Positions 26,157-27,313 of a stretch of 64,000 nucleotides of DNA are shown here, piece by piece (within the stretch, counting starts at the first letter, position 1; each line of letters begins with the position of its first letter). This DNA comes from Pseudo-nitzschia pungens (lineage: Eukaryota; Bacillariophyta; Bacillariophyceae; Bacillariales; Bacillariaceae). The DNA lies in contig CM074763.1 in the NCBI GenBank assembly GCA_037355855.1, positions 1,426,001-1,490,000 on the forward strand, read 5' to 3'. Below the pieces are notes generated by a model that ran no database searches, had not been told where the DNA came from, and saw only the letters and a list, made by a program, of their open reading frames with translations. A program made the position numbers and the translations under genes.

Positions 26157-26589
26157 CGCTGGGTCGGGTGATGACGAGCAGACTTCGATCAACGAATACC
26201 GAGCGGTGAGGATTTGTTGGCTGCCGGTGTCTGTTTTGGTTTCGGGAGACTTTCATGGCAAACGAGAAGTGAGAGAACCTACCACTGTACTATATGTGTC
26301 GGAATGTCCTTCAATTGTTTTCGGCTCTCTATTATTTCCCCGAAGAGGCGTTCCGAAGGAAACCGATCGAGAGTTGACAAAAAATGTGTTTTGACAGCAA
26401 ATGGAGTGTTCAATTTCCTCTCTCATCGTGGGCCGTCTTTTGACATCTGCGTCTCACACCGATCGGAATTTGGAACATACTACTACTACTTTGTTGTGCT
26501 CAGTGGCTTCTTTTTCGGTAGATGTAACTATACAAATCTATGATGCAGTCTTAGTAGTATGTATTGCTGTGGTGTGCGATGTAACGGAT
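26157..26589. other. Convergent intergenic region
   Basis: Lies between the F-box gene and the 3' flank of the selenoprotein candidate. No gene is supported. Confidence 0.45.
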
Positions 26590-26680: not shown

Positions 26681-26728
26681 GTCGCAGAACATCGGCACAG
26701 CACAACACAACACAGCTTAGGAATGGGC

Positions 26729-27313
26729 TCATCTTTCAAAGCCCCAACTTTCGGGTATGTGTTTTTCGTTTTCCAAGCCCAGAACGCTGTCTCTGTAGGG
26801 GTGCATGGCGGTGTCCCCCATCCCGGTGATCTTTTTGACGACTTTCCAGATCTTTCCCCGGTTCCGTGCGAACAATCTGTACCCGACATCCCGGAGGACT
26901 CTCGGGATCAGATACAACGCCAGGAATCCCAGAACAAAATAGGGAAACTTTAGATACGGATACAGCATGCGGAGGATCGAATCGGATTCGATGTACGCGC
27001 ATTCCTCCGCAAAGAGAACCGCGGTCGAAACGTCCGCGGGCATCCCGTGGGTGCGGCACAATTCTTGGGCCAGGCTCGATTGGATCGGTGCGAATCGAAA
27101 GTGATCGAGGGAATCCCGCTCGATGATGAACCCGGCCAAGAATTTTCACACGCCTCACCCGCCATCGTACAAGAACAGGGCGCGCTGGTGGCCCTTCTTG
27201 TCGACTCCCAGCAACCGTTTGGTGGACTCGAGCATCCCGGTGTCCCTGCCGCTGCTGCTGCTGCTGCTCCTGCCGCCGATCTCGACGACGCCATCTTCGT
27301 TGCCGTCCCGCAT
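26729..27313 (-). CDS. DCC-family (DUF393) selenoprotein candidate with U-x-x-U motif
   Basis: With two in-frame TGA codons (27155-27157 and 27146-27148) read through, the frame encodes 194 residues. The family is named for D-x2-C-x2-C; here FLYDGG is followed by TGA-Gly-Val-TGA-KFLAGF, so both cysteine positions (53 and 56) are TGA. The rest matches DCC proteins: RFAPIQSSLAQ, AVLFAEECAYIESDSILRML, a hydrophobic helix near YFVLGFLALYLIPRVLRD, and YRLFARNRGKIW. TGA differs from Cys codons by one base. Together with the SECIS-like hairpin downstream this indicates selenocysteine insertion. By family it is a thiol-disulfide oxidoreductase-like protein of unknown substrate. The frame is open further upstream without another ATG. 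The terminal codon is also TGA, with TAA four codons later. A pseudogene is the alternative but fits poorly. Confidence 0.8.

Follow-up and report, generated by a model that had tools for sequence, protein, structure and literature searches.

A predicted U-x-x-U selenoprotein of the DCC oxidoreductase family in the diatom Pseudo-nitzschia pungens

To our knowledge, few selenoproteins have two selenocysteine (Sec, U) residues within a single redox motif, and new selenoprotein families are seldom found in eukaryotes. SelL, which is found in aquatic animals, has a U-x-x-U motif. Its two Sec residues, two residues apart, are inserted with a single Sec insertion sequence (SECIS) element (PMC3316567). 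SELENOW is a C-x-x-U family in which rare members, from amphioxus and Ostreococcus lucimarinus, have Sec at the first Cys as well (PMC7539508), and U-x-x-U motifs are also described in prokaryotic selenoproteins, including a Prx-like protein, a metal-binding protein and FmdB (PMC13188914; PMC9312934). Here we describe a gene on the minus strand of a 64,000-nucleotide stretch of the Pseudo-nitzschia pungens genome (contig CM074763.1, positions 1,426,001 to 1,490,000; hereafter the window, within which positions are counted) that very probably encodes a functional U-x-x-U selenoprotein of the DCC family. This family of thiol-disulfide oxidoreductases (PF04134, DUF393, YuxK) is named for its D-x-x-C-x-x-C motif. 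The gene resembles its other members in domain, motif placement and conserved residues, and we are highly confident that UGA has replaced both of its redox Cys codons and is decoded as Sec.

The original prediction, made from the letters of the window, held that one continuous frame is broken only by two TGA codons, at the two motif cysteines, with family-typical sequence on either side. Re-translation of 27313-26729 with TGA as U bears this out, giving a single frame of 194 codons plus a stop, starting with ATG at 27313. Its internal stops are two, both TGA, at codons 53 (27155-27157) and 56 (27146-27148), and it contains no TAA, TAG or frameshift. The sequence there is LFLYDGG-U-GV-U-KFLAGF (D50-G-G-U53-G-V-U56), so that the two codons coincide exactly with both Cys positions of the motif, which is present with predicted Sec in place of both residues and with literal Cys absent. 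Two random stops among 194 codons would match both motif Cys about once in 19,000 cases by simple arithmetic. GC content at the first, second and third codon positions is 0.54, 0.42 and 0.74, the pattern of a coding frame.

The assignment to DCC/DUF393, for which the prediction had proposed a profile search, was likewise upheld. With TGA read as C, the protein matches the DCC1-like profile PF04134 at 68.4 bits (E 1.7e-18), against a cut-off of 27.8 bits, over residues 48-156 (26846-27172), and a six-frame profile search of the whole genome (66.9 Mb, 28 contigs) independently recovered the locus at 49.5 bits, above the cut-off and with '2 TGA' inside the match. The protein had no match in NCBIfam and nothing at E <= 1 in a sequence search of the PDB, and a search of viral contigs gave no related locus. 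An AF2 model (pLDDT 91.5) places the start of a helix at residue 54, and the protein is probably thioredoxin-like in fold. Another open frame, 201 residues long, occupies 27341-26736 on the same strand and overlaps the gene; it was rejected as a real gene, having no Pfam match while the conserved protein lies in the TGA-containing frame, and it probably arose by chance in GC-rich coding DNA.

Homologs of the protein are numerous. At least 122 distinct ones (P0002-P0123) were collected, a lower bound given that one search, which scored 7998 candidates sharing most words, gave 178 matches, of which 120 were listed. The motif is spanned by 97 of the 122 listed homologs, and the other 25 start downstream of it. 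Among the 97, 88 have CxxC (P0051, P0091 and P0123 among them), four have CxxW (P0003, P0008, P0009 and P0042) and five have WxxW (P0002, P0004, P0005, P0006 and P0007); C and W are the only residues at either position. The closest listed relative with a eukaryote name, P0040 from Nitzschia sp. (60% identity over 85%), has CxxC. Judging from the translations, the W residues would be TGA codons translated with genetic code 4, since no third residue occurs and drift to real Trp should bring others. Further features are in keeping with this. P0004 and P0007 have W also at the expected end of the protein, followed by W-rich tails, which is what translating a terminal TGA with code 4 would give, and three MMETSP-named proteins labeled 'type:complete' (P0010, P0013 and P0065) have their first Met downstream of the motif, the outcome expected of an upstream frame blocked by TGA. 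Other causes, such as introns or contig ends, may account for some of the 25 short homologs.

Conservation extends to both sides of the two codons. In eight clade relatives (P0002-P0009), 18-23 of 25 positions are identical over residues 28-52 and 94-112 of 137-138 over residues 57-194, with lower values (12-13 of 25, and 67-76 of 132-136) in two CxxC relatives that were compared; residues 1-27 are poorly conserved. This bears directly on the possibility that a DCC gene is decaying here, with both TGAs as ordinary nonsense mutations. The two in-frame stops themselves would fit such decay, as would the presence of three further DCC loci in the genome, all CxxC and without stops inside the match, which leaves this locus as the only one of four with any. 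The stops are nevertheless confined to the two Cys positions, with TAA, TAG and frameshifts all absent, the GC content by codon position is coding-like, the relatives show only W or C at both positions, and the flanks are conserved on both sides. The motif surroundings of the other three loci (FDGVCNLC, FDGVCNLC and YDSKCNVC) also differ from those of our gene, and by eye these do not resemble recent copies. Random stops and frameshifts in close relatives, which had been named as grounds for a pseudogene, were not seen in any of the translations compared. We therefore regard a pseudogene as very unlikely. That both codons are mistakes of sequencing or assembly has a negligible probability; nothing was found in its favor, and it would require a change of the same kind at two functional codons, where independent database relatives have W.

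Several components of the Sec machinery are encoded in the genome. Genes for SepSecS and SelD were both found, together with six tRNA-Sec genes in the whole genome, each scoring 77.6 bits with anticodon tca (UCA). The third domain of eEFSec was located at C9:524431-524982 (39.6 and 34.0 bits), beside SelB-like matches at C9:523648-524526; the matching profile, PF21208, is named euk_SelB_III in the search output, and we take it to be the eEFSec domain. Two other candidates for eEFSec were set aside, L042 having turned out to be EF-Tu and L044 to be IF-2. Judging from the tRNA-Sec, SelD, SepSecS and eEFSec genes, the host makes and uses Sec. As to gene arrangement, tRNA-Sec is usually single-copy; here L007-L010 stand in tandem on C10:2371879-2372342 with a 126-base spacing, and L005 and L006 are further copies. 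Three SelB/EF-Tu-like loci with equal scores and equal frame lengths (L039, L040 and L041) lie on C5 and C7, contigs that also carry many repeated tRNA-like matches; organelle sequence may have been joined to nuclear contigs here.

A further nine loci have TGA at a textbook Sec site, namely SelT, two GPx, two SelM, MsrA and three SelU-like genes, with contexts such as CVSU in SelT, CPxU in SelM and GUFWG in MsrA, which we take to be the canonical sites of these control selenoproteins. At one SelU-like locus the TGA lies upstream in a different frame, presumably in another exon. Some loci from the control searches have no TGA, including GPx L016 and most MsrA matches. The machinery and these nine loci together support the expectation that this host inserts Sec at UGA. 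They also weigh on a different explanation, in which an altered genetic code, or a suppressor tRNA, puts Trp or Cys at the two TGAs. The W or C that database translations of the relatives have at these positions could be taken in its favor. Against it stand the six tRNA-Sec(UCA) genes with the rest of the Sec pathway, the nine loci with TGA at known Sec sites, and the use of TGA as a terminator, both by the DCC frame itself and, in a mechanical count with spurious frames included, by 8 of the 18 long frames that start with ATG in the window; moreover, Trp at both positions would abolish the redox motif. We consider such a reading extremely unlikely.

A SECIS element was sought in the 3' untranslated region (UTR). 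The Rfam model SECIS_1 had no match at the locus or genome-wide; this negative was set aside because the same model also missed the GPx L017 control. A descriptor of our own (quartet, helix II, unpaired AA or CC, helix I) was used instead. In a first, loose form, with AA at 9-13 nt, it gave strong elements downstream of the control genes SelT and MsrA, of one SelM and of one SelU; those in the 3' regions of GPx L017 and one SelU were weaker, and the other GPx and SelM had none. A strict form, with quartet flanks AUGAC ... CGA taken from the control loci, matched five of the nine controls (MsrA, -26; SelU L028, -30.6; SelU L025, -28.6; SelT, -21; GPx L017, -14.1), with two matches in SelT, and gave no match in the other four (GPx L018/L019, SelM L029, SelM L030 and SelU L027).

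In the DCC 3' UTR the strict form found one element, scoring -18.2 and located 58 nt past the stop. This preferred candidate spans 26692-26574 on the minus strand and comprises GGA-AUGAC (AUGAC at 26671-26667), CGA at 26600-26598 and an apical AAA 16 nt after the UGA; the 16-nt spacing to the AA also occurs in L025 and L028, which have the two strongest of the SelU elements. Its score was reached in 3 of 2000 dinucleotide shuffles, compared with 0, 2, 7 and 10 of 2000 for four control selenoproteins, and in 349,786 strand-bases there were four strict matches at or below -18 besides the DCC locus and L025, two of these four being both strands of one stretch (L003); the spacing limit of the strict form was widened after the candidate had been seen, which makes both the background and the shuffle figures for -18.2 somewhat generous. 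Plain folding of the region is unremarkable (z -0.71). A second, weaker SECIS-like fold at 26328-26447 (minus strand; AUGA at 26426, AA 12 nt after the UGA) was rejected as the best element, for its loose score of -17.7 is equalled in 13 of 142 windows of the 64 kb, its own included, and in 6 of 300 shuffles, and its quartet flanks depart from the strict form of the control loci. The 3' UTR holds a candidate SECIS that resembles the elements of other selenoproteins in this genome, the exact element being suggested by pattern and spacing. Taken with the C- or W-only relatives, in which W would represent TGA and hence Sec at either or both positions, with the machinery and with the other selenoproteins, this candidate fits the Sec-for-Cys interpretation of the original prediction.

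UGA56 lies about 475 nt from the preferred candidate, inside the range of 207-5207 nt given for mammals in PMC3316567; the terminal TGA (codon 195, 26729-26731), at 58 nt, is at the edge of the minimum of 51-111 nt quoted there. This last codon is taken as the stop; three more codons (A-H-S) follow before a TAA. In the region 26717-26731, P0010, which is 95% identical, reads FER-T-A-H-P against our TGA-A-H-S, indicating that the stop position is not the same in close relatives. We consider a third Sec, at codon 195, possible but unlikely, in view of the 58 nt that separate this codon from the SECIS candidate.

Decoding may also be partial, which would be compatible with a U-x-x-U selenoprotein. 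Only one UGA might be decoded efficiently, or termination at UGA53 might be frequent, the main products then being a peptide of 52 residues or a separate protein that starts at a Met further downstream; the downstream open reading frames annotated in relatives would then be real. The 25 of 122 listed relatives that start after the motif would fit, in particular P0010, P0013, P0015 and P0028, which start at a Met equivalent to residue 91, and at a spacing of nine bases the decoding of two UGAs could be inefficient. On the other hand, the conservation of residues 28-52 in the eight relatives implies that a product joining both sides is needed, and SelL shows that two Sec at this spacing can be inserted with one SECIS (PMC3316567). 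Such partial decoding appears rather unlikely.

A tree was built from 49 chosen rows of 123 and rooted at the midpoint; Cys was entered at the motif positions of every row to keep these from driving the grouping, and U in its row labels is predicted from W in the relatives. One clade (support 100/99) unites our gene and the five other UU rows with three of the four CU rows and P0010, so that eight of the nine W-bearing rows group with our gene. It is nested in a 38-row group (88/94) whose remaining rows are 27 CxxC proteins, the Nitzschia P0040 among them, and one CU row. That CU row, P0042, a jgi protein with CxxW, falls outside the main clade and pairs with the CxxC protein P0051 (100/99); it apparently represents a second, independent CxxU lineage of the DCC family. 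Parsimony with three motif states required four changes, compared with a mean of 9.8 for shuffled labels, which were never as low in 200 trials. Read simply, the second Cys would have become Sec twice, and the first position would have varied between Cys and Sec within the clade. We consider it probable that these proteins form an unrecorded selenoprotein family in a clade of diatom-like algae, with stages from CxxC through CxxU to UxxU, a second origin of CxxU in P0042 and a diselenide/diselenol couple.

A mechanism can be proposed on this basis. The SECIS, for which 26692-26574 is the best candidate, would recruit the Sec-insertion machinery, and tRNA-Sec(UCA) would be delivered at UGA53 and UGA56, while UGA at codon 195 would terminate the protein, its 58-nt nearness to the SECIS perhaps keeping it a stop. 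In the predicted model, U53 lies just before the first helix and U56 in its first turn, where thioredoxin-like proteins have their CxxC. By analogy with the family and with SelL, the selenolate of U53 may attack a disulfide or peroxide and U56 may resolve the intermediate; the site is likely to be diselenide-forming, and the resulting U-U diselenide could be reduced by the thioredoxin or glutathione system.

The grouping of predicted UU and CU proteins in one clade beside CC relatives would allow the contribution of each Sec to rate, potential and resistance to over-oxidation to be tested, and likewise the order of Cys to Sec conversion. The truncated and W-containing database entries suggest that standard gene callers cut such genes short or translate them wrongly, in which case environmental surveys of algal selenium use would miss them.

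As for novelty, the original prediction could name no described DCC selenoprotein, and none was found in the paper library searched, which lacks most subscription papers. The main texts of PMC13188914 and PMC9312934 make no mention of DCC, DUF393, YuxK or COG3011, and DCC is absent from the main text and family abbreviation list of an algal selenoprotein survey, a list that also has unnamed classes, 'Hypo' and 'MSP', which could hide a DCC family (PMC7539508). As far as these searches show, the DCC family has not previously been recorded as using selenium. With SelL our protein shares the UxxU arrangement, its own family by profile being PF04134/DCC; SELENOW, where rare members gained a second Sec much as the CxxU and UxxU rows predicted here suggest, is a family whose relatives are assigned to PF10262 (PMC13188914), whereas ours is a DCC protein of a mostly CxxC family (88 of 97); and the other UxxU selenoproteins are prokaryotic and of other families. 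Compared with DCC/YuxK proteins themselves, most of which have CxxC, our gene has UGA at both Cys codons. UxxU selenoproteins were thus already known from SelL and some SELENOW proteins, and what appears to be new is a selenoprotein of the DCC family.
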